A stretch of 38,476 nt of DNA. It comes from Chitinophaga pinensis (GTDB taxonomy: Bacteria > Bacteroidota > Bacteroidia > UBA7662). Position numbers and translations under genes: made by a program. The notes beneath the pieces were generated by a model, which was given only the letters and a program-made list of their open reading frames with translations, ran no database searches and was not told the DNA's origin. Below, in pieces: positions 16,601 to 31,007 of this stretch (position 1 is its first letter; every line of letters begins with the position of its first letter). The stretch covers positions 1-38,476 of the forward strand of contig CAMCHJ010000018.1 in the NCBI GenBank assembly GCA_945874665.1. The letters run 5' to 3'.

Positions 16601-18168
16601 CGCACAATGATGTTGGCGGCAGGGGCATAAATTTTAGCTGAAATAGCAGTTGCTCCACTGGCAAAAGGAATGGCGGGGTTAAGGCCTCCTGTAGGAGTGA
16701 TGGTAGTGCCAGCCCAAGTTTGAGCGCCCACTGTCTTAGTGGTACGCAAAGTAGTGTTCGTAGAATCGGTTGGTGATGGCGCAAGCACAGAGGCATTTCC
16801 GCCAAAGTCGGTAAAGGTATACGTAAGCGCTGGGCTATCCCAAGTGATGGGTAAGTTTACAGTGGCTGGTGCGGGACCACCTGTACTTCCTCCAAAAAAC
16901 ACAGAGTCAGCATAAAAGGTTGCTCCAGTGCCTGCGCTGCCAAATCCATAAAAAATGGAGAGCATGTCGTAGGTATTGGCAAAGTTGATGGCTGCTGTGC
17001 CTGTGGCTTGGTTGGCAAAATTGAATACCAAGGTCTGCCAGCCCGCAGCGGTGGTAGTAGCTTCTGTTTCAACTGAAATAGTTGGTGTTCCAGCTTTTTC
17101 AGCTTTAAGTCGAACTACCACGTTGGCAGCAGGGGCATTTACCTTTACCGACAGGGTAGTTGCTCCCGCGGCAAAGGGGATGGCAGTGGTTAGGCCTGAA
17201 CCAGGGGTGATGGTAGTGCCTGCCCAAGTTTGAGCGCCTGTGGTTTTTACAGTGCGTAAAGTGGTGTTGGAAGCATTGGTTGGGTCTGGAACTAAAGTAG
17301 AAACGGTGCCACCGAAATCGGTAAACGCGTAGTTGATTGCTGTATTATCCCATGTGATAGGGAGGCTTGATTGTGCAGGAGGAGGCAGTAGGCCCCAGTT
17401 TGTCTTAACAATGAGACCATCTACGGTGATGTTTTGTGTCGAGCTGTATTGACGTAATACTGCTAGCTGAACAAAACTCAGATCGGGAGCCAAGATGCCG
17501 CTGACAGCAGTGGCTGCAAGTGGTCCAATGGCTGGAGTAGCAGGTTCGTTAGCAATATTGCTACCGTCAGCAAAAACGAAAAGACTCACCGAATCGTTGA
17601 GTGCGCCAGCTACAATCTGATACTTCACTACAACCAAATAAGTTGTGCCAGTATCAAGATTTAAGGCCGTTAAGTTGGTTGCTGTGGATGAATTGAATTC
17701 CAAGCCAAGCTTATATTGTGCAGCAGTTGGCCCAGGCGCCACAAACGTTCTTGCGCGAAAGGCTGTACTTACGGAAGTAAATACAGGAGTTGTGGTGTTT
17801 GTGTATTCTCCTACGTGAAAGAAATAACCCGCATTAGAAGTGGTTACGGCCCCATTTACGCGCATCAGGAAAGAGGAATATACGTTTCCTGAATTAACAG
17901 AAGTCGAAAATGGCTTGTTTTCGTCTGAGCCAGTGTTATTCACTGCAGCTGCATTACCTACACCGCTGCCGATGTAAGGTGTAGTCGTCCAGCTCAATCC
18001 GCCATTGGTTACGCGAATCGGATTGGTTGTGCCGCTATGGCTGAACCATCCATTGCTTTGTAACAAGGAATCGGCTGGGTAATTAAAGTGCTCCGTAAGC
18101 AGCACGTTTTGTGCAATGCCACTAAAATAACTTAGGCATAAAAACACAAGGGTGTAAATTTTCTTCAT
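13654..18168 (-). CDS. Large T9SS-secreted protein with three carbohydrate-binding-like repeats
   Basis: 1504 residues from the ATG at 18168 (MKKIYTLVFLCLSYF, signal peptide ending GIAQ); an in-frame ATG at 18201 adds a charged leader and is unlikely. Domains: an N-terminal domain of about 235 residues (TEHFNYPADSLL to VKTNWG) shared with the protein at 29880-30923; three tandem modules of about 160 residues that start LPITWD and end DSxFFGG; an Ig-like Cys-rich linker; a region similar to MAM/anchor domains (ETFATGLACDWQ to FALDDVNI); a second beta module; a CBM20/48-like module (VTFQVDMS, IHIAGNFQGW, YQYKFING); and a T9SS sorting domain ending SRQLVVTK. No catalytic residues are evident, so it is probably a surface binding protein. 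A composite operator lies 60 bases upstream of its start. Confidence 0.92.
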   Translation of the reverse strand: MKKIYTLVFLCLSYFSGIAQNVLLTEHFNYPADSLLQSNGWFSHSGTTNPIRVTNGGLSWTTTPYIGSGVGNAAAVNNTGSDENKPFSTSVNSGNVYSSFLMRVNGAVTTSNAGYFFHVGEYTNTTTPVFTSVSTAFRARTFVAPGPTAAQYKLGLEFNSSTATNLTALNLDTGTTYLVVVKYQIVAGALNDSVSLFVFADGSNIANEPATPAIGPLAATAVSGILAPDLSFVQLAVLRQYSSTQNITVDGLIVKTNWGLLPPPAQSSLPITWDNTAINYAFTDFGGTVSTLVPDPTNASNTTLRTVKTTGAQTWAGTTITPGSGLTTAIPFAAGATTLSVKVNAPAANVVVRLKAEKAGTPTISVETEATTTAAGWQTLVFNFANQATGTAAINFANTYDMLSIFYGFGSAGTGATFYADSVFFGGSTGGPAPATVNLPITWDSPALTYTFTDFGGNASVLAPSPTDSTNTTLRTTKTVGAQTWAGTTITPTGGLNPAIPFASGATAISAKIYAPAANIIVRLKTENAANGGIFVETEDTTTAAGWQTLVFNFANQVPGTPAINFANTYNMLSIFYGFGTAGNGAIFFADSIFFGGATGGGGGPVPTPVNLPITWDNSAITYSFTDFGGNVSALAGAPNDSTNITLRSTKTAGAQTWAGTTITPTTGIIPAIPFATGATRISAKVFAPAAGIPVRMKAETAGTPTISVETEATTFRAGWQTLLFDFSNQATGTAAINLANTYNMISVFYNFGTAGNGSIFYLDSVFFGGTANACPITTTPTATGGIACGPNGAVLSATAGDSTAFVVWSDSSNTIVGTGSPYTTSPLTANYNFKAHDAKISSGNFSPGPPTSITTGGFGNFSNGQYFTAISAFYWDSVTFRAQGAASGVIRVWDSNPTNFPNAKLIQSKNFSVSGAGDIQVPVDMAFSPGSYYVNIGLNTGSGLLWRSTGGAVYPYTVPGVMSIDSAWLGLNSPGNLNRVYYFLNWKVSEMCFGTGVNALATYAPSSVTTLPYAETFATGLACDWQRTQNTGSTGWKAGNAATLSSTYFIIPANGNFVASNDDTCNCNMGNDRLITPAFNFGSFGALNNLEMTFDYFLPGNYGSRGTVLASTDGGVTYNLIDSLPSTTLTAWGTRTVNLNSLAGQANVRFAFRHNDGGLWADGFALDDVNITTTCAGTEVTVEVITDIFGTETTWSLRDATTNAIYATGGPYPDVNPYNVAAATHVAVVCVPDSANVIFRINDSYGDGLFDGTNTGTFDVSIDCGGTQTTLFDGGGAFPYGGGAANVVSWDSLNFQVVCPAAAPRVSVTFQVDMSRETVSPNGIHIAGNFQGWSPSATPMVSQGNGIYTYTTLLDRDSTYQYKFINGNQWGTGFDEAVPAACAQNNNRFVVVDTSAITTPLVCFGRCEACGVNVFEAGSLGSAIRMYPNPTNAETHIAYEFQTPSDLNVTVYDARGKMVSQIIEKDITTGTIKLNVQHWSEGIYHVRMFNGSEQISRQLVVTK
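15859..17364 (-). repeat. Three tandem coding repeats of about 480 bp
   Basis: Copies at 16888-17364, 16378-16854 and 15859-16335 encode modules from LPITWD to FFGG. Shared blocks include FTDFGG, GAQTWAGTTITP, APAA, GWQTL and NxANTY. Spacers are short Gly/Pro/Ala stretches. The strong DNA identity between copies points to recent duplication and possible copy-number change. Confidence 0.9.
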
Positions 18169-18227
18169 TCTTTCGGTTTTAGTATAAATTACTATAAACA
18201 TAAAAAAAAGTAAATGAACGAAAGTAC

Positions 18228-18312: not shown

Positions 18313-19806
18313 CTACAACAATGAAATGAGCTGCTGTGTCTTCTGTTTAATGACGACTGGTCTTACCGTGCTATAGCCAATAATAAATCCGACTTGGGCA
18401 GCTGTTTTAATGTAACACTTGCTCAGTGGGTGTACTGAAATCTCGTTTTTTTCTAGTTTATCAACCAAATGCCGTTCCTCATCTATGCTTTTTGGTTTAT
18501 TGAAATGTGCCAATAGGTGCAGGCTATTGAAAGCTTGTTCCTGTATAAACATGGTCGAATTATGCTCAGCAAATTGGGTTTTAAAATAAAGGGCACGTTC
18601 TTGAGCAACTTCACTCAAGTTTTTGAGGTGCTGAAAAAGGTAGTTTCTCTCAATAAATTGCCCCATTACCATTTGCAAGGAGGGAGGCACAAAACGATGC
18701 GAATGTTCTTGCAGTGCCTCTACTACGGGCACTAAGTGCGCAGGCAAAATCATGTAGCCTAGTCTAATCGACGGATAAAGCAGTCGGTTAAAAGTGCCTA
18801 GGTAAATGGTTCTTTGTTCTTTGTCGAGACTAAACAAAGTAGGCAAGCTATTTTTAAGGTTGCCAATTTCATGCTCATAGTCATTTTCTATGAGGTAGCA
18901 ACTGTGCTTTGAAGCCCATTGTAACAAATCGAGACGACGTTGCAGGCTCATTTTGATGCCGAGCGGATAATGATCTGAAGGGGTAACATGGATCAGCTTC
19001 GGTTGTTCGTGTGCAACGGCATTTAAAGCCTGCATGTCAATGCCTGCATCATCTAAAGGCACCGGCAGTAATTTGGCCAAAGTGCTTTTAAAGATTGAAT
19101 GGACGTTGGGGAAGGTAGGGTCTTCCAGTACCACCCCATCTCCCTGATTGATGAGCGCGCTGGCAATCAGGTAAATCGATTGCAAGGACCCGGATACAAT
19201 AAGGACCTGTTCGGGTGTGCATTTAATGTTTCGACTTACGTGTAAATAATGGCAAATTTGGGTTTTTAAAAGTGCCGAACCTGCTGATTCACCGTAAGAA
19301 AGGTCTGAAGCCTTGATGTAGCGCCAGTAGGTATTGAGTAGATTTTTCCATTGGTTGATGGGGAAAATATCGATGGGCGGCAACCCAGGCGTGAAGGCTA
19401 TTGTTTGGTTGCTTTGTCGATTGAGAATGCTCACATTTTGCAAAAACGCGGCCCCTCGCTCTGATACACTGGGGTAATGCGCTGCACTTAAATTTTCGTT
19501 GGTGTTCGCTTTAAGTTCGGAAGTGGGTGTGCCAAGAACGCGATATCCTGACCCTGCTTTAGCTGTGATTAATTTCTCTAGCAAGAGCAGTTCGTAGGCT
19601 TTGATTACAGTGGTGCGGCTGAGTTGTAAAGCTTCACTTATGCTTCTGGTAGATGGTACAACCCAGTTATGAGGCAGTTCTTGCTCTTGAATACACTGTT
19701 TGATGGCTTTGTACAACGAAATATATTTATTTCCTTCCTTGTCCTTTTGGTGATTCTGAAAGGAAACCGTAATCCGATGTAGCGCAAATTCGTAATTGGT
19801 ATTCAT
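18313..19806 (-). CDS. MocR-type transcription regulator (GntR HTH plus aminotransferase fold) lacking the PLP lysine
   Basis: 497 residues. Residues 27-92 form a winged helix-turn-helix of the GntR family (VVPSTRSISEALQLSRTTV, GSGYRVL). Residues 135-497 are an aminotransferase class I-like domain with LSYGESAGSALL, VSGSLQSI, VTPSDHYPLG, IENDYEHE (Asp309, the residue that holds the PLP ring nitrogen) and YLGTFNRLLYPSIRLGY. MocR proteins such as GabR and PdxR normally have GTFSK here, the Lys binding PLP; this protein has Arg341, so covalent PLP binding is not expected. GabR-type proteins bind direct ATACCA repeats, and the same core occurs three times in this locus, including over this gene's own start codon. 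Likely role: activator of the flanking genes and autorepressor. Confidence 0.93.
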   Translation of the reverse strand: MNTNYEFALHRITVSFQNHQKDKEGNKYISLYKAIKQCIQEQELPHNWVVPSTRSISEALQLSRTTVIKAYELLLLEKLITAKAGSGYRVLGTPTSELKANTNENLSAAHYPSVSERGAAFLQNVSILNRQSNQTIAFTPGLPPIDIFPINQWKNLLNTYWRYIKASDLSYGESAGSALLKTQICHYLHVSRNIKCTPEQVLIVSGSLQSIYLIASALINQGDGVVLEDPTFPNVHSIFKSTLAKLLPVPLDDAGIDMQALNAVAHEQPKLIHVTPSDHYPLGIKMSLQRRLDLLQWASKHSCYLIENDYEHEIGNLKNSLPTLFSLDKEQRTIYLGTFNRLLYPSIRLGYMILPAHLVPVVEALQEHSHRFVPPSLQMVMGQFIERNYLFQHLKNLSEVAQERALYFKTQFAEHNSTMFIQEQAFNSLHLLAHFNKPKSIDEERHLVDKLEKNEISVHPLSKCYIKTAAQVGFIIGYSTVRPVVIKQKTQQLISLL

Positions 19807-19824
19807 TTGTAATTGGTACTGGTA
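19795..19824 (-). promoter_or_regulatory. Composite operator C (TACCAGT-N16-TACCAAT) over the regulator start
   Basis: On the minus strand TACCAGT (19824-19818) is followed 23 bp later by TACCAAT (19801-19795). Part of the second motif recurs between them: GTAATTGGTA occurs on the plus strand at 19792 and 19809. The ATG of the MocR gene (19806-19804) lies between the half-sites, suggesting autorepression. The divergent hydrolase gene starts 43 bases away, in the same relative orientation as for operators A and B. Confidence 0.7.
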
Positions 19825-19866
19825 TTACGAATATAGCTGAAAAATAGACGATTTTCGAAATTTCTA

Positions 19867-20799
19867 ATGAAGTCCTATTTGAATAACCTTCTTAACATTG
19901 GCAGTGGCTGTAAGTTGCTTCTCCTAGCAATGGCATTGTTGCTGGCCTGTAAAAAGGAGCAACCCAGTGTACCCAGCTCCGAATGGCAGGGCAGCGGGTT
20001 GGAGGTGTTTGTTGATTATGAGCCATTAGCAGCTAAAAACCTGCGCCTTTTTTACTTCGTACCGGCCAATGCAAATGCCACCAGTCCGATTGTTTTTATT
20101 TTTCATGGAGCCGAGCGCAACGCTTTGGAATACCGCAATGCGATCATCAACAAAGCCACAGCCATGAATTTTATTGTGGTGGTGCCTGAATTTTCGGAGG
20201 CGAGTTTCTCTGATGTAAATGGCTATCAGCTAGGTAATGTATATATCGACGGCGATCAACCATCTGCAGCTACCTTAAACGCAGAGGCCATTTGGTCGTT
20301 TTCGTTGGTTGAGCCCCTGTTCGCTTTTGTGAAGAATAAGACCAAAAATACCAATGCTACATATTTGGCGATCGGGCATTCGGGTGGCGCGCAGTTTTTA
20401 CATCGCTTTTTGATGTTCAAGCCTGCCGCCAAATGTGAACGGGCCATAGTTTCGGCAGCAGGTTGGTACACGGCTACAGATAAAAACATCGATTTTCCAT
20501 ATGGATTGCGGTCTTCGCCGCTTGAAAGCCTGGATTTGGCTCCACTGTACACTAAAAACATCACCGTTCAGGTAGGGACTTCCGATAATAATCCCAATTC
20601 CTCCAGCTTGCGCCGCAATGCACAAGCCGACGCACAAGGATTGCATCGATTGGCCCGGGCTCAGTATTTTTACAACAAAGCAGCGCAAAACGCCAGCATT
20701 TTAAGCCTGCCTTTTACGTGGCAATTGGCCATCATCCCTGGCTTGAGTCACGATTATGTGGCTGCCCTGGGACATGCTGCAGACCTGCTTTTTCCCTGA
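19867..20799 (+). CDS. Lipoprotein alpha/beta-hydrolase (PHB-depolymerase-like serine hydrolase)
   Basis: 310 residues. A lipoprotein signal ends in LLLACKK, with Cys28 as the lipidated residue, so the enzyme sits on a membrane, probably facing outwards or the periplasm. The alpha/beta-hydrolase triad can be read: Ser172 in GHSGG, Asp240 in GTSDNNPN and His295 in GLSHDY, with an oxyanion-type FHGAERN at 79-85. The arrangement resembles esterase/PHB depolymerase family members. As established background, a poly(aspartic acid) hydrolase (PahZ1) and a polymalate hydrolase are related to this group, which is why an acidic polymer is a candidate substrate; this is inference. It is divergent from the regulator across operator C and followed after 29 bases by the SLC13 transporter gene. 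Confidence 0.88.
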   Translation: MKSYLNNLLNIGSGCKLLLLAMALLLACKKEQPSVPSSEWQGSGLEVFVDYEPLAAKNLRLFYFVPANANATSPIVFIFHGAERNALEYRNAIINKATAMNFIVVVPEFSEASFSDVNGYQLGNVYIDGDQPSAATLNAEAIWSFSLVEPLFAFVKNKTKNTNATYLAIGHSGGAQFLHRFLMFKPAAKCERAIVSAAGWYTATDKNIDFPYGLRSSPLESLDLAPLYTKNITVQVGTSDNNPNSSSLRRNAQADAQGLHRLARAQYFYNKAAQNASILSLPFTWQLAIIPGLSHDYVAALGHAADLLFP

Positions 20800-20828
20800 G
20801 CCACCCCTCTAAAACCCCTTCTAGCTCA

Positions 20829-22277
20829 ATGAAACTCACCAAAAAAACAGTCGGCTTGTGGCTTGGTCCCTTCTTATTTGTATGGATTCAGTTTTTTTTG
20901 GAACTACCTGGCCTCAGTTCAGAGGCCACGGCCGTGCTTGCCTGTGCGGCTTGGATGGCTGTTTGGTGGATTACTGAAGCCATTTCAATCGCCGCCACAG
21001 CCTTGCTGCCAATCGTACTTTTCCCCTTAACCGGCGGCTTGAGCTTATCGGCCACCACTGCCAACTACGGGCACCAATACATTTTTCTGTTTTTGGGGGG
21101 ATTTATTTTGGCCATTGCCATTGAAAAATGGCAATTACATCGCCGCATTGCGTTGAGCATCATTGCCTTGGTGGGTACCAATGTGCGATTTATCATTCTT
21201 GGTTTTATGCTGGCTACAGGGTTTTTATCGATGTGGATTTCGAATACAGCCGCTGCAGTGATGCTTTTACCCGTGGGCATGGCCATTGTGATGCAATTGC
21301 GCGACAATCCTGCCACCATCGAGAATGAAAACCTCAAGTTCGGGAAAGCGCTCATGCTCGCCATAGCTTATTCAGCTTCAATCGGCGGCATGGCCACGCT
21401 CATTGGCACGCCGCCTAATTTGGTGATGGCAGGGGTGATAAAGGAGACTTACGGCGTAGAAATTACCTTTCTCGATTGGTTTTTATTGGCTTTCCCAATC
21501 AGCGTCGCCATGTTATTCATGTGTTGGTGGTACTTGACCAAGGTGGCTTTTAAGTTTGAACAGCAGACTTTTCCAGGAGGCAAAGCCGAAGTACAGCGCC
21601 AATTGGCCGGATTGGGCAAGATGTCGAGGGCCGAAAAGCGCGTTTTAACGGTGTTTGTATTGATGGCCTTGGCCTGGATCAGTCGCTCGTTTGTATTGGT
21701 ACAGCTATTTCCGGGCATCGACGATACCATCATTGCCATTGTGGGTGCCTTGGTGCTTTTTATCCTACCAGCAGAGCGCGGCAAACCTTTGGTAAATTGG
21801 GAGGATACCCACCAATTGCCTTGGGGCATTATCGTATTGTTTGGCGGAGGCATTGCTTTGGCAACGGGCTTTGAGGATAGCGGTTTGGCAGCATGGATCG
21901 GAAGTCATTTAACTGCACTGCATGCGATGCCGTTTTGGTTACTGCTGCTGTTGCTGGTGGCGAGCGTGAATTTCCTTACCGAAATCACGTCCAATCTGGC
22001 TACTACCGCCATGATCCTACCGGTGCTGGTGTCGATTGCGGCAAGCATGGAGGTTCATCCTTTTTACTTGGTGATGGGCGCCACCTTAGCTGCTTCCTGC
22101 GCCTTTATGCTCCCCGTGGCCACGCCACCAAACGCCGTAGTGTTTGGCTCAGGCTATCTCAAAATAGAGGAGATGGTAAAAAACGGCTTTTGGATGAATG
22201 TGATTTCTATTTTGATTGTGGCAGCGGCGGTTTACTTTTTATTGCCGTTGGTGTGGGACTTACAACTGGTCGATTAA
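20829..22277 (+). CDS. SLC13/DASS family sodium:dicarboxylate symporter
   Basis: 482 residues from the ATG at 20829; a longer frame from 20718 would overlap the hydrolase gene and adds a non-membrane leader, so I reject it. About 11 hydrophobic segments. The two DASS substrate and sodium motifs are present: WISNTAAAVMLLP and the pseudo-symmetric LTEITSNLATTAMILP, together with IGTPPNLV and LPVATPPNAVVFGSG. The family imports C4-dicarboxylates such as succinate, malate or aspartate, or sulfate in some branches, with Na+. It forms an operon with the lipoprotein hydrolase under operator C. Its stop codon overlaps the convergent porin stop by four bases. Confidence 0.93.
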   Translation: MKLTKKTVGLWLGPFLFVWIQFFLELPGLSSEATAVLACAAWMAVWWITEAISIAATALLPIVLFPLTGGLSLSATTANYGHQYIFLFLGGFILAIAIEKWQLHRRIALSIIALVGTNVRFIILGFMLATGFLSMWISNTAAAVMLLPVGMAIVMQLRDNPATIENENLKFGKALMLAIAYSASIGGMATLIGTPPNLVMAGVIKETYGVEITFLDWFLLAFPISVAMLFMCWWYLTKVAFKFEQQTFPGGKAEVQRQLAGLGKMSRAEKRVLTVFVLMALAWISRSFVLVQLFPGIDDTIIAIVGALVLFILPAERGKPLVNWEDTHQLPWGIIVLFGGGIALATGFEDSGLAAWIGSHLTALHAMPFWLLLLLLVASVNFLTEITSNLATTAMILPVLVSIAASMEVHPFYLVMGATLAASCAFMLPVATPPNAVVFGSGYLKIEEMVKNGFWMNVISILIVAAAVYFLLPLVWDLQLVD

Positions 22278-23488
22278 AAAGCAATTTGAAGCATACATTC
22301 TGCCACGGTCGTATTTACGTTGGCGCGGTTTAACAGGGTATAAGCCAGTTGTGCTTTGAGGTTGTGGCCCTTAAAATAGCGGGTCAATCCCAAGGTGTAA
22401 CTGTCGGTATCGGTCATTAAACTGTTGGTATAATTGGCAAACTCTGGCAGGGCTTGGCCGTAACGTAAATCAACACTGTAGCCCTTAGGGGTTACATAGC
22501 CCAACTGTGCGTTGTAGCTGTTGCCAAGTTGCAAAAGACTGCTGATTTGCTGCGGGGCCAGTAAAAGCACGGCATTGGCATCTTCATAATTTTCGCCGAG
22601 TCCAGCTGCTGACGCATTGCCAAATTCAACCAACATCGAAAAACCTCTGTACTTAGCGAGGGCGTCGATGTAGAGTTGGCGGTAATTGGGCAAGCTTACT
22701 TTGCCTTTGTTGTCGTAAAGTAAAAAATCGCCATGGCCTTCACCTAAAGCATGACTGGCCCCATGGTTGATGCTGAAGGCCGATCCAACGACCATTTTAA
22801 GGCTTTCCTCGCGCTGTAAATCGGCACTGTAAAGCTCGTTACCGGCTTTGAAGTAGCCGAGGGGGTAAAGGTCGAGTCGACCGCCGTACTTTAATCCGCC
22901 CAAATCTGTATCGCGCGAGTCAGCACCAAACGAGTTGCGGCCGTCGCCCGAGGTGATGGCCAACATGGGCGCGATGCCGAAGTTTTCGCCGTAGCGACTT
23001 TCGAAGAAGAGGCCAAATTCACGGCCGCTAACGCTTAGTTGTTCGCTCAACAGGCCTCTTTCGGTGAACTGAAAGCGGTCTTCGCGGTACAACATCTCGC
23101 GGTTGTTTACGAACGTCTGTTTTTGGCCAAAGGTAATGGTCGTGTTTTTGCTGGGATGGTAAGCCACCCAAGCGTCGAGCAAGGGACGTTGTTCGCTGAA
23201 GTTTGTTTGGATGAGGAAGCTCACTTTTTCTTGCACGGCCTGACCGCTGAGTCGGAAAAACGACCGTTTGGCATTGAAAAACTGCATGGCATCGGCGTTT
23301 TCGGTCGTGCTGTAGCGGTAAGCAGGCTGGATAAAGCCACCGAGACCAAATTTGTAAGCACCATTGTTGAGCGAAAACTGCAAACCATTATCGGCATCAA
23401 ATTGCGCCTGGTTTTGCATGCGCAGGGCTTGAGCTTGCGTGCTTAAACTACCAGCACTGAGGAGTATGAGGAGGACGATTTTTTTCAT
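22274..23488 (-). CDS. OprO/OprP-like outer-membrane porin (first of two)
   Basis: 404 residues with a signal peptide (MKKIVLLILLSAGSLSTQAQA). The mature part is a long barrel: FGLGGFIQPAYRY, AKRSFFRLSGQ, SFLIQTNFSE, WVAYHP, TFGQKQTFVNNREM, EFGLFFESRYG and a C-terminal Phe (MLQIAF). These features match the phosphate-selective porin O/P family, which forms anion-selective channels. In this setting it may admit acidic peptides or dicarboxylates. It is the last gene of the seven-gene minus-strand operon, 12 bases after the M14 peptidase gene. It shares its overall plan with the protein at 25033-26340, so the two are paralogues. Confidence 0.87.
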   Translation of the reverse strand: MKKIVLLILLSAGSLSTQAQALRMQNQAQFDADNGLQFSLNNGAYKFGLGGFIQPAYRYSTTENADAMQFFNAKRSFFRLSGQAVQEKVSFLIQTNFSEQRPLLDAWVAYHPSKNTTITFGQKQTFVNNREMLYREDRFQFTERGLLSEQLSVSGREFGLFFESRYGENFGIAPMLAITSGDGRNSFGADSRDTDLGGLKYGGRLDLYPLGYFKAGNELYSADLQREESLKMVVGSAFSINHGASHALGEGHGDFLLYDNKGKVSLPNYRQLYIDALAKYRGFSMLVEFGNASAAGLGENYEDANAVLLLAPQQISSLLQLGNSYNAQLGYVTPKGYSVDLRYGQALPEFANYTNSLMTDTDSYTLGLTRYFKGHNLKAQLAYTLLNRANVNTTVAECMLQIAF

Positions 23489-23500
23489 GTCGTTACATTT

Positions 23501-25030
23501 TTAGGGAGTCAATCGATAAATGGGGAGGATTTCACCAGCTTTTGTGGGCAAAACACCAAAACTAACGAAGCTGTTGGGAGCTTCGGGCTCTAACAATTCA
23601 AATAAAATAGGGCTACCGGCTTGGTTTACGGGGATGTAAAAACTGCCTGCTTCAAAAGTTTTGGTAAGCGTGCTGAGGGTAGTGGTGACCTCTTGCAGCG
23701 TCATTTTTTCGTATTTTTCAGCCGCTCGCTGGTTATTTTGAACTGTATATTGCTCTACCTTAAAGGCCTGAGGGGTGTCGAGCCGCTGCACTTGCAAGCC
23801 ATAGGCTTCGATTTTGGCAACGAGTACGCTTTGACTGGCCTCGAGGAGATAGGCAACGGGCCTGCTGCGACTGAGGGTGGCCTTCGATTGCCAAGCATCT
23901 CGCAGGGTAACGTCGAGGGCGATGCGTTCGGTTTTTTCGAGATCGATAAAGTCGAGTTTACCCGCGTAGATGTGCTTTTTGGAGCTCACAGTGATGTTGT
24001 CTGTGCTTGCATCGGCTTTTTCGAGCGCAGTAAGCAGCCGCTCGCCTTCACTGGCCGCGATGTTGAGGTAGGCTTGGGCTACCAAGTAGCCAGTAAAAAT
24101 TCTGCGTTTGAAGGAGGTGCGGCCGATACCAACGCCCCGAACTTCTACAAGGGTTGAAACAATGTTTTGCAAGGCAAAATTGGTGGCGCTCGACCGGGCG
24201 TTGTTAGAGCCTTGGTTGAAATGGATTTCGCCCTGATAAGTATCGGTGCTCACATAATCGTGGTGTGTAAGCTTGTGCTGGTCGAGTTGCGCAAGGGTGG
24301 GCTTTAAAAACACCTCTTGGGTGTAGGTACGCAAATAGGCAGGTACATTGAGGTTGCCTGAGTATAAAAACATCACATCATAGGCACTGGTGACGCCAAA
24401 AGTGCTCATTTTGGCAAAATCGCGGCGATAAGGCCTGAATTCGTGAAAGTCGAGGGCCACATGCGGCTTGAAAGCACTGAAGGCTTTTTTGAACAAGGCG
24501 CTTTCGGTAGCCATTAGCTTTGTTTGATCGCGGTTGAGGTCGAGGTTCTCGGCATTGTTGCGCGTTTGCTTGAGGTAACCATCGATGTTGGCCATCGGCA
24601 AGACTGCTAAATCTATTTTTTGAAGCAGGTTGGTAAGGGTTGGGTCGTGCAGCAACTGGTGCAAAAGGTACAGCAGGGCTTCGGTGCTGGCAGGCTCATC
24701 GCCGTGCAAGCCGCCTTGCATCCACACCCTTACTTTAGGTCCGGGTGAATTGCTTTTGAGCTGCACCAGCGGAATGGCGAGTCCTTTTTTAGTGCTACCA
24801 ATGTAGCTCAAGCTGATTTGGTTAGGGAATTTTGCGCACAAATCTTGCAAAAAGACATTGAGCTCCTCGTAATCGGTAAAGCCTTTCTGCTTTTTCAAGG
24901 CAGGAGTTACCTCCGGTAAGTCGTGTTTTTCGGGAAAAAAAGTGTCGGTTATGCGCGATGATTGAGGGTTAAACTGACTCATCAGCAGCAAACCTGGCAA
25001 AATCCACAAAAACCGAGTGAAGCGTTTCAT
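23501..25030 (-). CDS. M14-family zinc metallopeptidase (carboxypeptidase-like), exported
   Basis: 509 residues with an N-terminal hydrophobic signal (FLWILPGLLLMSQF). Zinc ligands of the M14 family are seen: GGLHGDEPAS gives His109 and Glu112, and ALDFHEF gives His196. DLNRDQ holds the substrate-binding Arg167, and the catalytic Glu lies in TLVEVRGVGIG. A C-terminal extension of about 190 residues has no motif I recognise. It is probably periplasmic or surface exposed and trims amino acids from the C terminus of peptides. It begins 2 bases after the upstream porin stop in the operon with iadA and dcuC, which suggests acidic or isoaspartyl-containing peptides as substrates (inference). Confidence 0.9.
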   Translation of the reverse strand: MKRFTRFLWILPGLLLMSQFNPQSSRITDTFFPEKHDLPEVTPALKKQKGFTDYEELNVFLQDLCAKFPNQISLSYIGSTKKGLAIPLVQLKSNSPGPKVRVWMQGGLHGDEPASTEALLYLLHQLLHDPTLTNLLQKIDLAVLPMANIDGYLKQTRNNAENLDLNRDQTKLMATESALFKKAFSAFKPHVALDFHEFRPYRRDFAKMSTFGVTSAYDVMFLYSGNLNVPAYLRTYTQEVFLKPTLAQLDQHKLTHHDYVSTDTYQGEIHFNQGSNNARSSATNFALQNIVSTLVEVRGVGIGRTSFKRRIFTGYLVAQAYLNIAASEGERLLTALEKADASTDNITVSSKKHIYAGKLDFIDLEKTERIALDVTLRDAWQSKATLSRSRPVAYLLEASQSVLVAKIEAYGLQVQRLDTPQAFKVEQYTVQNNQRAAEKYEKMTLQEVTTTLSTLTKTFEAGSFYIPVNQAGSPILFELLEPEAPNSFVSFGVLPTKAGEILPIYRLTP

Positions 25031-25032
25031 GT

Positions 25033-26340
25033 TTAAAAGGTAAAGGTGACAATCATGCGACTGATGAGCTCGTTGCCAGTAACGGGCAAGCCTGCATTGT
25101 TGTTGATGCCGCCGTTGTTGCGCACATAGGTAACATCTCCCTGGATTTTTGCGCCATAGTTGCGGGCTAGGTATTTACTCAGTCCCAAGGTGTAATAATT
25201 CGGTCGGTTGTAAAAAGTACCATTGTTCAAAAACGAATGTTGATCGGCTCTTATGTAAGTATAACGCCCATCTACCGATATGCCGTTTTTGAAAAGATAG
25301 CCAAATTGAATGTTGTAAGCCTCACCGATCATCATGCGGCCGCGGATGTAGTTGGGCATGTCTTCAATGCCGTTTACGTCGAAGCTGGTAGATGTGCTGC
25401 CATCAATACGAACCCGCTGGGTGATGCCTTCGGGTACCGTGGCGCCCGTTTTCACAAATTCACCGAGCATCGAAAAACCACGGAATTTGAACAGGAAATC
25501 GAGACCGTACTTGCTGAAGTTGGGTAGCAGCTCGTCATTGTTGTTGTCGAGGTACAAAATAGCGCCACTTTCACGGCCGCGGCGACTGCTCATGCCTTGG
25601 TTGTGACTGTAATTGGCGCCTATCACCAGTTTTGGGGTAAGTTCTCGCACCACATCTACTTGATTAAACTGTCCGAGGTTGGTAAACAAACCAAATGGCA
25701 AGTAGTCGATGCGGCCACCAACTTTCAAGCCACCGCGGTCGCGTCCAATTACATTCAAGCCATCGCCATTGGTAAGCACAAAGTAGGGCTTGAAGTATTG
25801 GCCATTGGCTGTTCTAAAGGTGCCTTCTACAAACAAACCAAACTCGCGGATGGTGGCAAAAGCAGAGGTCAGTCTACTTCTTTCTACCAATTGCAAACTG
25901 TAGGAGTTCATAAATAGCTCTCGGTTGTCGGTAAAGGTGGCGCGTTGACCAAAGCTGGCTTTGATGCGGTTAGTGATGCTGTACGATACATACGCATCGA
26001 GTAAGAAATTACTATTTCCCTCAAGCTCTTCGCCGGTGCCGCTTAAATCGGCTTGAAAACGGTAGCTAAAACGTTCGTTGGCGGTGTTGCCCTCAACTCG
26101 CATGCGTAACCGGCGCATTCGAAAGCGGGTGGCGAGGTCTTCCTCTTCAGCGCCCAACAACATTTTGGTTTCGGCAAAGGGTTGGATGAAGCCAGAGATG
26201 CGCACTAAACTACCTGTATTATCGGTAATCCGAATGCCATTGCCGAAGCTGTAGCTGTCGATTACAGGATTTTTTTGAGCTAGGCTGATTTGGCTGCCAA
26301 GAAGGATGCTAAAAAGCAGCAGCAATAAGCGGTTTTTCAT
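25033..26340 (-). CDS. OprO/OprP-like outer-membrane porin (second of two)
   Basis: 435 residues from the ATG at 26340 (MKNRLLLLLFSILLGSQISLAQ, signal peptide). The frame opens at 26382, but that start would overlap iadA by 38 bases and places a polar leader before the signal. Barrel features parallel the protein at 22274-23488: GFIQPFAETK, RMRRLRMRVEG, YRFQADLSG, YVSYSITNRIKASFGQRATFTDNRE, REFGLFVEG, and a C-terminal aromatic (RMIVTFTF). It belongs to the phosphate-selective porin O/P type and is probably anion selective. Spacing to iadA is 4 bases and to the M14 gene 2 bases. Confidence 0.87.
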   Translation of the reverse strand: MKNRLLLLLFSILLGSQISLAQKNPVIDSYSFGNGIRITDNTGSLVRISGFIQPFAETKMLLGAEEEDLATRFRMRRLRMRVEGNTANERFSYRFQADLSGTGEELEGNSNFLLDAYVSYSITNRIKASFGQRATFTDNRELFMNSYSLQLVERSRLTSAFATIREFGLFVEGTFRTANGQYFKPYFVLTNGDGLNVIGRDRGGLKVGGRIDYLPFGLFTNLGQFNQVDVVRELTPKLVIGANYSHNQGMSSRRGRESGAILYLDNNNDELLPNFSKYGLDFLFKFRGFSMLGEFVKTGATVPEGITQRVRIDGSTSTSFDVNGIEDMPNYIRGRMMIGEAYNIQFGYLFKNGISVDGRYTYIRADQHSFLNNGTFYNRPNYYTLGLSKYLARNYGAKIQGDVTYVRNNGGINNNAGLPVTGNELISRMIVTFTF

Positions 26341-26344
26341 AGGC

Positions 26345-27487
26345 TTAGTCAAAGGCAGGTTGAAGGAGTATTTTTTGCTCACGCATCACGGGTTCACCGT
26401 TGGCAAATACGTCGCAGAGGTTCCAGTCTTGGTCGAACCAACACAAATCAGCATCTACCCCAACCGCAATGTGGCCTTTATTGGTGATGCCGAGGTTGGC
26501 AGCAGGACCCGTTGTAACGAGTTGCAGGGCTAGCTCGGCAGGTAGGCCGCCTTGACGGATGAGCTGCTGTATTTGTAGCAGGTTTTCGTTGATCGGTGCT
26601 TTTTTGAAACCGATGGCGTTGCCTTGGGCGTCGGTTTTGGTAAGCCCGGCGTGCCCATCGGTACTGAAGGTCATTTTGGCTAAGGGCGCACCTTGGTCGA
26701 GGGCGTAAAGCACCGATAAGTAAGGGTCAGTGTATTTAGAGGCACCTGTAGTGATGTCGATGCTGCCGCCAAGCTTGGCAAAGGCAATGGCTTGGTCGAA
26801 TAAACTCTTACTGCGGCCAACGTGCGTAGGCGAGATGTGGGCAATGGGGAATTGATACTGCTGCACCAGCTCAAAAAGGACATCCATTTGTGTTGGCAAA
26901 TCGCCTAAATGCACATGCATGATGCCTTTTTTATTGCTCAGTAAGCCTCCAACACGCACTTCGCGCAGCTTGCGCACCAGCTCGATGGCAGTAGGGTATG
27001 AGGAGCGAATGTCGCTGATGGCGATTTTGAAACCAAGCACTGGCGCAACAAAAACCATGTCGCTTTGGATGCTTTCGGTGATTGTAACGGTGTCGCTGCC
27101 GTAATAGCCCGAATACATATAGGCCGATAAGCCTTCTTGCCGCAGTGCGCAAACCTTGCCGTAAAGGGCGCGGATGTTGCGAGCGGTGCCGTCGGTGCCG
27201 AGCAGACCTACCGCCGTGGTGGTGCCACAAGCAATGAGTTCTTGTGCCTTTATTTCAGGTGTCATCGATAAAAAGCCATCTTTACCACCAGCCCCTGTGA
27301 TGTGGATGTGCTGGTCGATGAGGCCTGGAGTGACTTTTTTGCCAGCAGCGTCAATGGTTGTAGCCAGACTGGCAGGCAGGTCTATTTTTTTGTCGATGGC
27401 CACGATTTTTCCTTGCGCTATAAGTAAATCGCGCATACCCAAATGGCTTGGCGCATATACGTCGGCATTTTTGATGAGGTACAGCAT
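26345..27487 (-). CDS. iadA: Isoaspartyl dipeptidase (beta-aspartyl-peptidase)
   Basis: 380 residues, no signal peptide, cytoplasmic. It hydrolyses beta-aspartyl dipeptides (isoAsp-X) to aspartate and an amino acid. The amidohydrolase metal site is complete: DQHIHI gives His60 and His62, GFKIAISD gives Lys154 (the carboxylated lysine), HVHLGD gives His193, PTHVGR gives His222, and FSTDGHA gives Asp277. VGLLGTDG, SGYYG and ESRVGG-like REVRVGGLL also match IadA, which fits far better than other dihydroorotase-type amidohydrolases. It follows dcuC by one base and precedes a porin by four, so it is translated within the operon. Its presence gives the strongest clue to the substrate of the locus. 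Confidence 0.95.
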   Translation of the reverse strand: MLYLIKNADVYAPSHLGMRDLLIAQGKIVAIDKKIDLPASLATTIDAAGKKVTPGLIDQHIHITGAGGKDGFLSMTPEIKAQELIACGTTTAVGLLGTDGTARNIRALYGKVCALRQEGLSAYMYSGYYGSDTVTITESIQSDMVFVAPVLGFKIAISDIRSSYPTAIELVRKLREVRVGGLLSNKKGIMHVHLGDLPTQMDVLFELVQQYQFPIAHISPTHVGRSKSLFDQAIAFAKLGGSIDITTGASKYTDPYLSVLYALDQGAPLAKMTFSTDGHAGLTKTDAQGNAIGFKKAPINENLLQIQQLIRQGGLPAELALQLVTTGPAANLGITNKGHIAVGVDADLCWFDQDWNLCDVFANGEPVMREQKILLQPAFD

Positions 27488-27488
27488 C

Positions 27489-28847
27489 TTAAATAAAATG
27501 ATAAACGAGCATCACCAATAATGCTGCGCTGAGTGGAATGAGGTTGCGTTTAACGATGTCCATGCTGCTTACCTTGGCAATTTCAGCCGTGGCAATGAGT
27601 ACGCCCGAAACAGGTGAAACGGTTCGGCCCATGGAAGCCGCTAATTGCATGGGGAGCAGGAGGGTGGTGGTTTCCATGCTGAGCTGGCCGGCGATTTTGG
27701 GTACCAAAGGACCAAAAGCGAAAAAAGCTGCATTGCCGCTGCCCATGAGCATGGCGGCTAAAAAAATCATGATGGTCATGGCTATTCCAATGCCCGTCAT
27801 GCTGAAGCCCAGCGAGCTCGTGCTGCTGATTAAACCGTCGATAAAACCCAAGCTGATAAGTCCTTTTGCAAAAATATCGGCTGTAATGATGAGCGTAACC
27901 ACCGATTTGAAGATGTCGCCCATGCCGTTCCAAAAAACTTGTAAGGAGGCCAGCAGGGTTTTGAGTTGTCGGTGACGGATGGCTTCGAACAGCAAGGCTA
28001 CAAACAGGCTGATGAACATCACGGTGGTGGTATCGAGGTAGATGGGCGTTTCGAAAAAGCTAAAAATCTCTGAAAAAACCAACAGCAGTACGATGGGGAG
28101 GATGGGAAGCAGGGCGTAAATGGCAGGTACGCTGGGTTTGGCTACCTCCGTGGCGGGTACTTCTTCGGTTTTGGTCCTGTTTTTTTGGTCGTAGTAGCGG
28201 TTGGTGAAATAATAAGTTACCATCATGACTATACTCAGCGGCCAAACCAAAGGAATTTGGTGGTGGAGGAAGTAAAAAACGGTGTCCATGTCCATGATTT
28301 CAATGGCGCTGGCGGTGGTGGCGCAGGCGGGACCGATGCCGAAGGCGGTGCTGGCCGTGATGACTGAAACGGCCGAAAGTCGACTTACGCCCAGGCGAAG
28401 GAGGATGGGGAATAGCGAGGCCATGAGCAAAAGACTGAGTCCTGCGGCCGACGGAATAGCTATAAACAGCACCTGAGCAATGGGAATGACCATGCTGGCG
28501 GCCAAATAGGGGTTCTTTTTGAATAGCTGCAAGGGCCGCATCGAAAGGTGCACGAGTATGTCTGACGCGCCAATTTTATCCATATAGGCCACAAATCCGC
28601 CAATGGCCATGATCATGAGGCCTACGCCAGCGTTGGTTTTGCTGAAAGACTCTTTGATGGAGGCGAAGAAGTCGAAACCACTGACCCCCGTTGGCTGCTG
28701 TAAATCGGGCAGAGGCATTTTTAAAGCCGCTGCAGCTAAAAGCATGGCAAGTCCCGAAAGCAGCAATACTGCTTGTGGATTGTATTTACGCAGCAGCAGT
28801 CGCGCTACAACAGCGATAAATAAAACCGAAACAATTGGACCGAGCAT
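27489..28847 (-). CDS. dcuC: DcuC-family C4-dicarboxylate carrier
   Basis: 452 residues with about 12 hydrophobic segments. DcuC signatures in order: the N-terminal LLLRKYNPQAVLLLSG, MIMAIGGFVAYMDKIGASDI, SAAGLSLLLMASLFPILLRLG, ALLPILPI, GMGDIFKSVVTLIITADIF, AAMLMGSGNAAFFAFGPLVPK, and GRTVSPVSGVLIA. The family exchanges or imports fumarate, succinate, malate and aspartate across the inner membrane. A second, unrelated dicarboxylate carrier (SLC13) lies in the same locus. It starts 9 bases after the lamin-tail lipoprotein gene and is followed directly by iadA. Confidence 0.93.
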   Translation of the reverse strand: MLGPIVSVLFIAVVARLLLRKYNPQAVLLLSGLAMLLAAAALKMPLPDLQQPTGVSGFDFFASIKESFSKTNAGVGLMIMAIGGFVAYMDKIGASDILVHLSMRPLQLFKKNPYLAASMVIPIAQVLFIAIPSAAGLSLLLMASLFPILLRLGVSRLSAVSVITASTAFGIGPACATTASAIEIMDMDTVFYFLHHQIPLVWPLSIVMMVTYYFTNRYYDQKNRTKTEEVPATEVAKPSVPAIYALLPILPIVLLLVFSEIFSFFETPIYLDTTTVMFISLFVALLFEAIRHRQLKTLLASLQVFWNGMGDIFKSVVTLIITADIFAKGLISLGFIDGLISSTSSLGFSMTGIGIAMTIMIFLAAMLMGSGNAAFFAFGPLVPKIAGQLSMETTTLLLPMQLAASMGRTVSPVSGVLIATAEIAKVSSMDIVKRNLIPLSAALLVMLVYHFI

Positions 28848-28856
28848 GCTTGGAGC

Positions 28857-29858
28857 CTAGAAATTGCTGCCGTTTACTTTCCTACCAGGCGAGAAGAGGG
28901 CGCCGTTGGCCGCTGGAATGGTGGCGTGCTGAACAAAATCGCCGGTAATGTCGGGGTTGCGGCTGTAGGCTTCATCGGGATTGCCTGATAAACCGTTGAT
29001 GTCGAAAACGGCTACCACATTGCCCAGACTGTCGCGCAGGGTGAGTATGTCGCCGGCGTTGTTGAGGTTGAGCTGGCCCTCAGTGGCGGTTTGAACGATG
29101 GCACCCCCGAAGCTGCCGGTAGGATTGCCACCGCCGAATACTACAATTACACCATTGCTAGGTACAATGGTGCCAGCAGGGAAGGTGTGGCGCACTTGTG
29201 CGGCGTCAGATAAAGTAAAACCACTGATGTCGAGTGCTGGATTCGAATTAAAGAGTTCTACAAATTCATCAGCCAAAGGATCACGCACCCCATCACCATT
29301 GGCATCTCCGGCGGTATCGGCCGCTGGGTCATACAACACTTCATTAATGAGCAAGCCGAGCCAAGGACAGCCGTTGTTGGCGGCAGGACCAAAGTCATCT
29401 GGACAATCGTCATCTATGTCAGGTACCCCGTCGCCATCGCGGTCGGCATTGGCGCGGACCAAAGTAACCACAAAACTATTGGGTGTTTGTGGCAATACAT
29501 CAGCAATAGCGCCTAAGGCGATGATGATTTGTTTACTACTGGTATCCGTGCCCGGGATAGCCGTGATGGTTATAAAGCCAGAATCAACACCTGCAGGGAT
29601 CGTGATTTCGCCAGCAGATACACTGAAGTTTTGCCCTAAAACAGCATTCCCCGAAAAGGTAATCGGTACCGAAAGTGGTTCTGAAACAGCTCCATTGAGG
29701 CGTGCCATTACGCGCATGGTACCACCATCGTCGTTCAAATTTGTGGTGCTGACCGCCAAGGTAAGTGTTGGAAAAACATCTTGGGTTTTGCAGGCCGACA
29801 GCAACAAGCTACAGGCTAAGAGCAATAATGGTCGCGCGGGGGCAGACATCCATTTCAT
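28857..29858 (-). CDS. Lipoprotein with Ig/Calx-beta-like, thrombospondin type 3 and lamin-tail domains
   Basis: 333 residues. A lipobox LLSAC makes Cys23 the lipidated residue. Residues 30-132 form a Calx-beta or Ig-like sandwich (LAVSTTNLNDDGG, ITIPAGVDSGFITI). Residues 133-160 hold a calcium-binding thrombospondin type 3-like repeat (DRDGDGVPDIDDDCP). Residues 165-333 are a lamin-tail domain (LLINEVLYDPA, DEFVELFNS, DISGFTLSD, GDILTLRDSLG). In Bacteroidota such proteins are surface exposed and often scaffold or bind partners. It lies between the T9SS protein gene and dcuC in the operon, 21 and 9 bases away. It may anchor the substrate or the co-expressed T9SS protein; this role is inferred. 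Confidence 0.87.
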   Translation of the reverse strand: MKWMSAPARPLLLLACSLLLSACKTQDVFPTLTLAVSTTNLNDDGGTMRVMARLNGAVSEPLSVPITFSGNAVLGQNFSVSAGEITIPAGVDSGFITITAIPGTDTSSKQIIIALGAIADVLPQTPNSFVVTLVRANADRDGDGVPDIDDDCPDDFGPAANNGCPWLGLLINEVLYDPAADTAGDANGDGVRDPLADEFVELFNSNPALDISGFTLSDAAQVRHTFPAGTIVPSNGVIVVFGGGNPTGSFGGAIVQTATEGQLNLNNAGDILTLRDSLGNVVAVFDINGLSGNPDEAYSRNPDITGDFVQHATIPAANGALFSPGRKVNGSNF

Positions 29859-29879: not shown

Positions 29880-30923
29880 TTAACGGATCACCAGCTTTTT
29901 GATGGCTACTTGACTGGCTTGTTCGAGCCGCAGCAGGTACAAACCAGCAGTTTGTGCAGGCAGGTTTATTTGGCCATCCTGCACTTCAGTTTCAAGGATG
30001 ATGCGACCAGTGAGGTCAACCAAACGGGCCTTCATAGGAGCATCGTTGTGCGATTTTATATACAAAGCACCACCGGTGTAAGGGTTTGGATACATTTCAA
30101 GCTGAGCGCCAAAGGCAGCGTCTTGTACACTTGTATTTGCGGGCTGCAGCAACCAATGGTCGCGTACATAAAGGCCATCCACCATTACCTTTTGGTCGGC
30201 GTTGAATTGTCGTAAAGCAACGCCTTGTAAAACAGTTGCATCCACTGCCGTGCCGCCGTAAGGCCCGAGGGTAGGTGTAGCTGGTTCGTTGCGCAGGGTA
30301 TCTCCCTCGTCGAATACAAACAAACTCACTTGGTCGTTGTCGGCCCCGCTTACAAAACTGTATTTTACCACTACCAAATAGGTTTTGGCTGTGTCGAAGT
30401 CGTTGGTTACATCAACGCCTGCGGTACTTGGCACGGTGGCGGAGTTGAAGGTAAGTCCCAAACGAAAGCTGGCCGCTGTGCTACCAGTGGTGATAAAAGT
30501 ACGTGCTCGCCAAGCGCTGCTTATCGACGTATAATCGGGAGTGGTTGTATTGCTGTAAGTAACAAAATGAAAGAAAATACCGCTTCCATCGGTTGTTACA
30601 GGGCCGGTTGTTTTGAGGAGAAAGGAGGCGTAAACGTTGCCAGAGTCGCGGTTGGCTGTAAAAGGACGGTTTTCGTCTGACCCCGTATTGTTTACCAAAG
30701 CCGCATTGCCAATGCCGTTGCCGAAATATACAGTGCTGCCAAGAGTGAGGCCGCTGGCGGCTACTGTTTGCGGGTTTGTTGCTGCAGCGCTGTGAGCGAA
30801 CCAGCCGTGGTCGCGAAGTTGCGCTCCTGCGGGGTAATCGAAGTTTTCAATGAGGAGCAGACTTTGGGCATCTGCACTGCCAAATACTGCCGTGAGTAAG
30901 GTGATTAAGTATATCTTTTTCAT
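29880..30923 (-). CDS. T9SS-secreted protein sharing its N-terminal domain with the 1504-residue protein
   Basis: 347 residues, signal peptide MKKIYLITLLTAVFGSADAQ. The N-terminal 235 residues are clearly homologous to those of the gene at 13654-18168: ENFDYPAGAQL against EHFNYPADSLL, the shared NNTGSDEN, SGNVYxSFL, AxRARTF, KTYLVVVKY against TTYLVVVKY, and VDGLYV against VDGLIV. The C-terminal 75 residues, from EMYPNPYTGGALY to IKKLVIR, are a T9SS sorting domain. It has no catalytic motif I can see, and its small size makes it the minimal version of the shared domain. It is the first gene of the seven-gene operon, with composite operator B 55 bases upstream of its start. Confidence 0.9.
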   Translation of the reverse strand: MKKIYLITLLTAVFGSADAQSLLLIENFDYPAGAQLRDHGWFAHSAAATNPQTVAASGLTLGSTVYFGNGIGNAALVNNTGSDENRPFTANRDSGNVYASFLLKTTGPVTTDGSGIFFHFVTYSNTTTPDYTSISSAWRARTFITTGSTAASFRLGLTFNSATVPSTAGVDVTNDFDTAKTYLVVVKYSFVSGADNDQVSLFVFDEGDTLRNEPATPTLGPYGGTAVDATVLQGVALRQFNADQKVMVDGLYVRDHWLLQPANTSVQDAAFGAQLEMYPNPYTGGALYIKSHNDAPMKARLVDLTGRIILETEVQDGQINLPAQTAGLYLLRLEQASQVAIKKLVIR

Positions 30924-30977
30924 GCTGTAATACTGATTATAGCACGCAAGATGGTATTTTCACCTTGCTTGATGCAA

Positions 30978-31007
30978 TACCAGTGGTTAATAATAAGAAA
31001 TACCAGT
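30978..31007 (+). promoter_or_regulatory. Composite operator B (TACCAGT-N16-TACCAGT)
   Basis: Two identical direct copies start at 30978 and 31001, again 23 bp apart; both are preceded by A (ATACCAGT). An inverted copy of the core, TGGTAT, lies at 30952-30957. The near half-site is 55 bases upstream of the first gene of the seven-gene minus-strand operon, in the same relative orientation as operator A. Confidence 0.72.

Follow-up and report, generated by a model that had tools for sequence, protein, structure and literature searches.

A Bacteroidota clade of MocR regulators lacking the PLP lysine, associated with a putative beta-aspartyl-peptide utilization locus

We propose, with a probability of roughly 0.6, that mocR of Chitinophaga pinensis encodes a PLP-independent MocR regulator that is dedicated to a Bacteroidota locus for the utilization of beta-aspartyl peptides and that responds to an acidic compound inside the cell. 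In the literature MocR regulators depend on PLP, and the 1331 AAT domains of one survey, with only 57 Bacteroidetes sequences among them, had Asp279 and Lys312 (numbering of Bacillus subtilis GabR) conserved across all MocR clusters (PMC6677901). The clade described here is a natural one in which both of these residues are replaced while the DNA target, the fold, and the linkage to a single locus appear to be kept. We found no report of this clade with Asn308 and Arg341, and full-text literature searches returned no paper on a lysine-less MocR (older subscription reviews may mention one) and none that places a MocR at a locus for isoaspartyl peptides or polyaspartate. Within the window, by which we mean the whole stretch of 38,476 nucleotides that was analyzed, the gene and the two codons at issue lie as follows.

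18313..19806, reverse strand: mocR, 497 amino acids, with a wHTH at residues 28-90 and an aminotransferase-like domain at about 130-497; a MocR regulator without the PLP lysine
18784..18786, reverse strand: codon CGA for Arg341, at the position of GabR Lys312
18883..18885, reverse strand: codon AAT for Asn308, at the position of GabR Asp279

The product has the architecture of the MocR subfamily, in which a GntR wHTH precedes an aminotransferase-like domain of fold type I (Pfam PF00392 GntR and PF00155 Aminotran_1_2), and is also matched by NCBIfam MocR models. Its ligand-free AlphaFold model (mean pLDDT 88.9) has a fold nearest to those of GabR, PdxR, and aminotransferases, with a VIA-align Z of about 41 for GabR (PDB 4n0b, 5x03), which bears out the view of a first-pass annotation that the rest of the fold is intact. 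The best PDB sequence match is PdxR (E=1e-44; Bacillus clausii, PDB 7pq9, 7zla), and the score of 349.3 against the NCBIfam PdxR model NF052282 exceeds the cutoff of 320, so automatic annotation would name the protein PdxR. Unlike PdxR, however, the window protein has neither the PLP lysine nor the Asp, and its locus contains no pdx genes; we therefore rejected this identity, and the name, which denotes a pyridoxine-biosynthesis regulator, is most likely wrong. As judged from sequence, architecture and descent make the protein a MocR, whereas the residues that define the PLP-dependent members of the subfamily are missing from it. No viral relatives of the regulator were found.

The same annotation had proposed that Arg341 (codon 18786-18784) takes the place of the PLP lysine, and this stands: the residue lies opposite GabR Lys312 in both phmmer and MAFFT alignments, within a motif that reads GTFNRLLYPSIRLGY in the mocR ORF. 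Its statement that the functional aspartate is intact as Asp309 does not. The GabR segment IEDDY, in which Asp279 is the first aspartate and Tyr281 the last residue, aligns with IENDY in the window protein, so that Asp279 corresponds to Asn308 and Asp309 to GabR Asp280. In GabR, Asp279 contacts the pyridine nitrogen of PLP (PMC6917764, Table 2). Among the GabR residues in that table, Lys312, Asp279, Tyr205, and Arg207 are changed here to Arg, Asn, Phe, and Asn, and His114, Phe250, and Arg430 to Pro, Tyr, and Lys; Tyr281 and the phosphate-binding Arg319 are retained as Tyr310 and Arg348. Because the lysine is absent, no internal aldimine can form, and the sequence of the mocR product thereby implies that covalent PLP binding is lost. 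The additional loss of the pyridine-nitrogen Asp strengthens the earlier suggestion that the regulator senses its ligand, perhaps an acidic one, without covalent PLP. That suggestion fits all of our findings, although the retained Arg348, Thr338, and Tyr310 would still permit non-covalent PLP or a PLP adduct.

The first-pass annotation described the substitution in one protein; it is a property of a whole clade. Asn308 and Arg341 are fixed in 60 of 60 sequences of a single Bacteroidota clade (NR type), none of which retains the lysine or the pyridine-nitrogen Asp of PLP-dependent MocR proteins, whereas all eight close sister sequences have Asp and Lys (DK type; L132-L134, L143-L146, and L076, with intact PLP residues). 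No lysine is invariant across the NR clade, the best alignment columns being K270 (57/60), K181 (56/60), and K463 (54/60), and we accordingly regard replacement by another lysine as improbable and rejected it. A scan of GTDB genomes yielded 54 relatives, whose record titles name Bacteroidota lineages in every case save one. The scan was seeded with the peptides IFPINQW and IENDYEH and so favors the recovery of Asn308; claims about the clade therefore rest also on HMM and protein searches made without choice of a motif, and the additional relatives found in this way all agree on the residues. An orthologue from the same genus, 75% identical, has the same residues at 308 and 341 and the same neighborhood but encodes them with synonymous codons (CGA/CGG at 341 and AAT/AAC at 308), which argues against both chance and sequencing error; dS was saturated in the dN/dS comparison.

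Five positions fully separate the NR from the DK sequences: Gln209/His, Phe232/Tyr, His273/Tyr, Asn308/Asp, and Arg341/Lys. In a maximum-likelihood tree built with columns 308 and 341 masked, the NR sequences fall on one branch (SH-aLRT 99) beside the DK sisters, although the tree is of the quick type and the branch that joins the sisters is supported at 86 only. One transition is thus enough, and the sequences indicate that the Asn308/Arg341 pair arose once, together with Phe232, Gln209, and His273, with the fold, the phosphate Arg, and the DNA site unchanged. Both types occur together in one genome (G753), where the locus holds the NR copy and the DK copy lies at another site.

Around mocR, the window holds a set of genes that recurs with the clade.

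19867..20799, forward strand: pahZ1, a poly(aspartic acid) hydrolase-1 homologue with a lipoprotein-type N-terminus (PDB 9o7u, E=1.1e-52; 6ve6, E=8.4e-50); near mocR in 33/54 loci
20718..22277, forward strand: DASS-family carrier (TIGR00785), with the true start probably near 20829 (MKLTKKTVG)
22274..23488, reverse strand: porB, a second conserved outer-membrane-type protein with no Pfam match, 35/54 loci; 'porin' is a putative reading
23501..25030, reverse strand: M14 zinc carboxypeptidase of secreted type, 40/54 loci
25033..26382, reverse strand: porA, porin O/P-like, 38/54 loci, with the true start probably near 26337
26345..27487, reverse strand: iadA, isoaspartyl dipeptidase, 42/54 loci (TIGR01975, 332.1 bits against a cutoff of 331.25, a marginal score; PDB 7cdh, E=8e-76; 1onw, E=5e-74)
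27489..28847, reverse strand: dcuC, DcuC-family carrier, 42/54 loci
28857..29858, reverse strand: lamin-tail-domain (LTD) lipoprotein, 42/54 loci
29880..30923, reverse strand: T9SS-sorted protein, the first operon gene in this genus

Some or all of the locus genes (LTD, DcuC, IadA, the two porin-like proteins, M14, PahZ1, and DASS) lie near an NR-type regulator in 52 of 54 loci, and many of the partial sets are accounted for by the ends of contigs; in the two exceptions, dcuC (58% identity) is found elsewhere in the genome. The dcuC-iadA-pahZ1 set is absent from all eight DK sister loci, although two of them contain a DASS carrier and another single locus count applies to an LTD protein, present in one. 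Of 295 sampled genomes of the class, eight carry the clade regulator, and precisely these eight also carry the locus DcuC (Fisher p 8e-16, with genomes counted as independent). T9SS-sorted proteins at 13654-18201 and 29880-30923 flank the locus and have related N-terminal regions.

By full-length alignment to the solved PahZ1 structures, in which its GHSxG-type motif keeps the serine, the pahZ1 product is a PahZ1 homologue and is predicted to cleave beta-Asp amide bonds. Degradation of tPAA by PahZ1 is known from Sphingomonas sp. KT-1 and from Pedobacter sp. KP-2, which is also a member of the Bacteroidota (PMC4456602). Here a homologue of the hydrolase adjoins a regulator, whereas the cited paper deals with the enzyme and describes neither a regulator nor this multigene locus. 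IadA hydrolyzes beta-aspartyl dipeptides (PMC10206079), and the pairing of iadA with a transporter for such dipeptides is shared with cyanophycin-utilization loci (cyanophycinase, iadA, and transporter; PMC10206079). Unlike those loci, the one in the window lacks a cyanophycinase, and there is no peptidase S51 match in the window's genome; cyanophycin is thus an unlikely substrate in this genome, and we rejected a cyanophycin locus for it. The N-termini suggest that the PahZ1, M14, and LTD proteins are surface or periplasmic and that IadA, in which we see no signal peptide, is cytoplasmic. The simplest reading of the gene set is the uptake and digestion of beta-linked aspartate peptides, and the first-pass hint at isoAsp compounds gains support from the conserved iadA/pahZ1/dcuC locus and its shared operators.

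Two predicted operators connect the regulator with these genes.

19797..19825, reverse strand: operator 1, ATACCA-N17-ATACCA, which overlaps the start codon of mocR and precedes the pahZ1 ORF by 42 bp
30977..31005, forward strand: operator 2, ATACCA-N17-ATACCA, which precedes the first gene of the operon by 54 bp

Known GabR sites are direct repeats of ATACCA (PMC4494728), and mocR carries a GabR-like direct repeat at its own promoter. Upstream regions of the clade contain a direct repeat with the consensus CATACCAaTT. It is present with at most one mismatch in 43 loci, 42 of which have a box spacing of 23 bp, and the window has two exact ATACCA-N17-ATACCA sites against 0.01 expected. Operator 2 precedes the T9SS-LTD-dcuC-iadA-porA-M14-porB run, the T9SS-sorted protein gene at 29880-30923 being the first behind it. 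Among 51 exact sites across loci, 34 are at mocR, 13 are at other recognized locus genes (pahZ1, LTD, and DASS), and four precede ORFs that were not classified; in two of these four cases the ORF is the T9SS-sorted first operon gene of this genus. A single further site in the rest of the genome (C29:9135) lies inside an 883-amino-acid ORF; we took it as chance and rejected it as an operator. Several DK sisters carry the same boxes, indicating that the DNA side was retained while the ligand side changed. Since the operator type is common to these sisters, the operator alone cannot tell which genes the regulator binds. Taken with the locus, however, it suggests that the regulator very probably controls the conserved gene set for beta-linked aspartate peptides, and on the sequence evidence we consider both locus and regulon well supported. 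The resemblance to GabR extends over architecture, operator, and the equivalents of Arg319 and Tyr281, whereas GabR itself is found at gabTD. Operator 1 overlaps the mocR start codon (ATGAATACCAAT), and its second box falls within codons 2-4 of mocR (AAT ACC AAT; 19794-19806 of the window). Because of this overlap, part of the sequence that encodes the conserved MNTN start belongs to the operator, and what keeps these residues constant may be DNA binding, not a role in the protein.

By analogy with GabR, a head-to-tail dimer would bridge both ATACCA boxes, and mocR would repress its own gene through the box that overlaps the start codon. A ligand held non-covalently would close the aminotransferase-like domain and thereby switch on the catabolic genes. 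Contacts read from the GabR alignment place Arg341 with Arg348, Arg371, Lys463, His273, and His279 in what could be an anion-binding pocket, in which D308N would remove one negative charge, that of a carboxylate, while the phosphate Arg348 is retained and conserved His residues are gained. EnuR, a MocR of ectoine catabolism, has been shown to sense an intermediate of the catabolism that its target locus encodes, as we propose here. EnuR, however, requires covalent PLP at Lys302, a residue completely conserved in 278 EnuR proteins, and its K302H variant is unable to bind PLP and represses constitutively, with induction lost (PMC8739950). Loss of the lysine thus normally abolishes induction, and a conserved lysine-less clade must be induced in another way; by its residues this clade must sense its food differently from every characterized relative. 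Because IadA has no visible signal peptide and would meet its substrate in the cytoplasm, an intracellular beta-aspartyl peptide appears to be the likeliest ligand. We hold only tentatively, at somewhat less than even odds, the fuller account in which an entire old clade left PLP chemistry altogether and, on one branch, had its pocket rebuilt around arginine to serve as a receptor that binds beta-aspartyl (isoaspartyl) peptides non-covalently. Counting against our best explanation, beta-aspartyl peptides have a free amine that an ordinary PLP-dependent MocR could sense, and chemistry alone leaves the loss of PLP unexplained.

A PLP-independent regulator could instead respond to free aspartate or to another C4-dicarboxylate, such as malate, fumarate, or succinate. 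The locus encodes DcuC and DASS carriers, families known for C4-dicarboxylates, and aspartate is the shared end product. These compounds are, however, central metabolites and poor specific signals, and the hydrolases of the locus recognize beta-Asp bonds, so we regard this alternative as somewhat unlikely. Less probable still is continued use of PLP or PMP, held non-covalently by the phosphate cup, with PMP, or an aldimine that has formed in solution, as what the regulator senses. The residues Thr338, Arg348, Ser207, and Tyr310 and the aromatic residue at 232 are conserved in the clade, and Phe232 and Tyr310 are aromatics that could stack on the ring. Against this stand the Asn at the Asp279 position in all 60 sequences, the loss of PLP in EnuR K302H (PMC8739950), and the lack of any recurring aminotransferase or pdx gene among the neighbor clusters of the clade loci.

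It is very improbable that the aminotransferase-like domain is a ligand-free dimerization scaffold, with expression set by dosage or by another regulator. The losses of the Lys, the Asp, and the equivalent of GabR Arg207 would agree with such a role, but seventy positions are near-invariant in the clade, including Asn234, His273, Tyr280, Asn308, Tyr310, Arg341, His370, and Arg371, which argues for a constrained binding site. A sporadic loss-of-function mutation or a sequencing artefact in one genome, conceivable when nothing beyond a single sequence had been seen, was rejected as having a negligible chance in view of the clade-wide fixation across many independent assemblies with intact open reading frames.

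If the fuller account of a rebuilt, PLP-free receptor for beta-aspartyl peptides is correct, this would be, as far as we have found, the first known sensor of isoaspartyl peptides and the first natural PLP-free MocR. The proposed regulated Bacteroidota locus would act on beta-linked poly-aspartate and isoaspartyl peptides, which arise as proteins age and also from an industrial polymer that is biodegradable. Comparison of the NR clade with its close sister clade of PLP type also makes the role of PLP, and PLP-free sensing by this fold, directly testable. Recurrent neighbors of the DK sisters, named from their sequences, are N-acyl-D-amino-acid deacylase-like, class IV aminotransferase-like, dehydrogenase-like, and M14/M20 genes, and SusCD-like genes are also among the neighbors. 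The sister clade, which as far as we have found is undescribed too, probably regulates the use of D-amino acids or peptides.

Arginine is also found in place of the PLP lysine in four distant Bacteroidota MocR proteins (GSFGRS, GSLARS), L111 (G268:C9:36687-37526), L113 (G190:C8), L115 (G118:C24), and L117 (G098:C5), all of which keep Asp279; the phosphate Arg is additionally lost in L113, L115, and L117. These would represent at least one independent loss of the lysine. Two paralogues in Chryseobacterium angstadtii, L130 (G307:C5:216220) and L131 (G307:C3:735170), have GTFSRS and GSFNTS at the lysine position, and L131 also has Tyr for Asp279; the two would represent another separate loss, within a genome that bears an NR-type gene as well.
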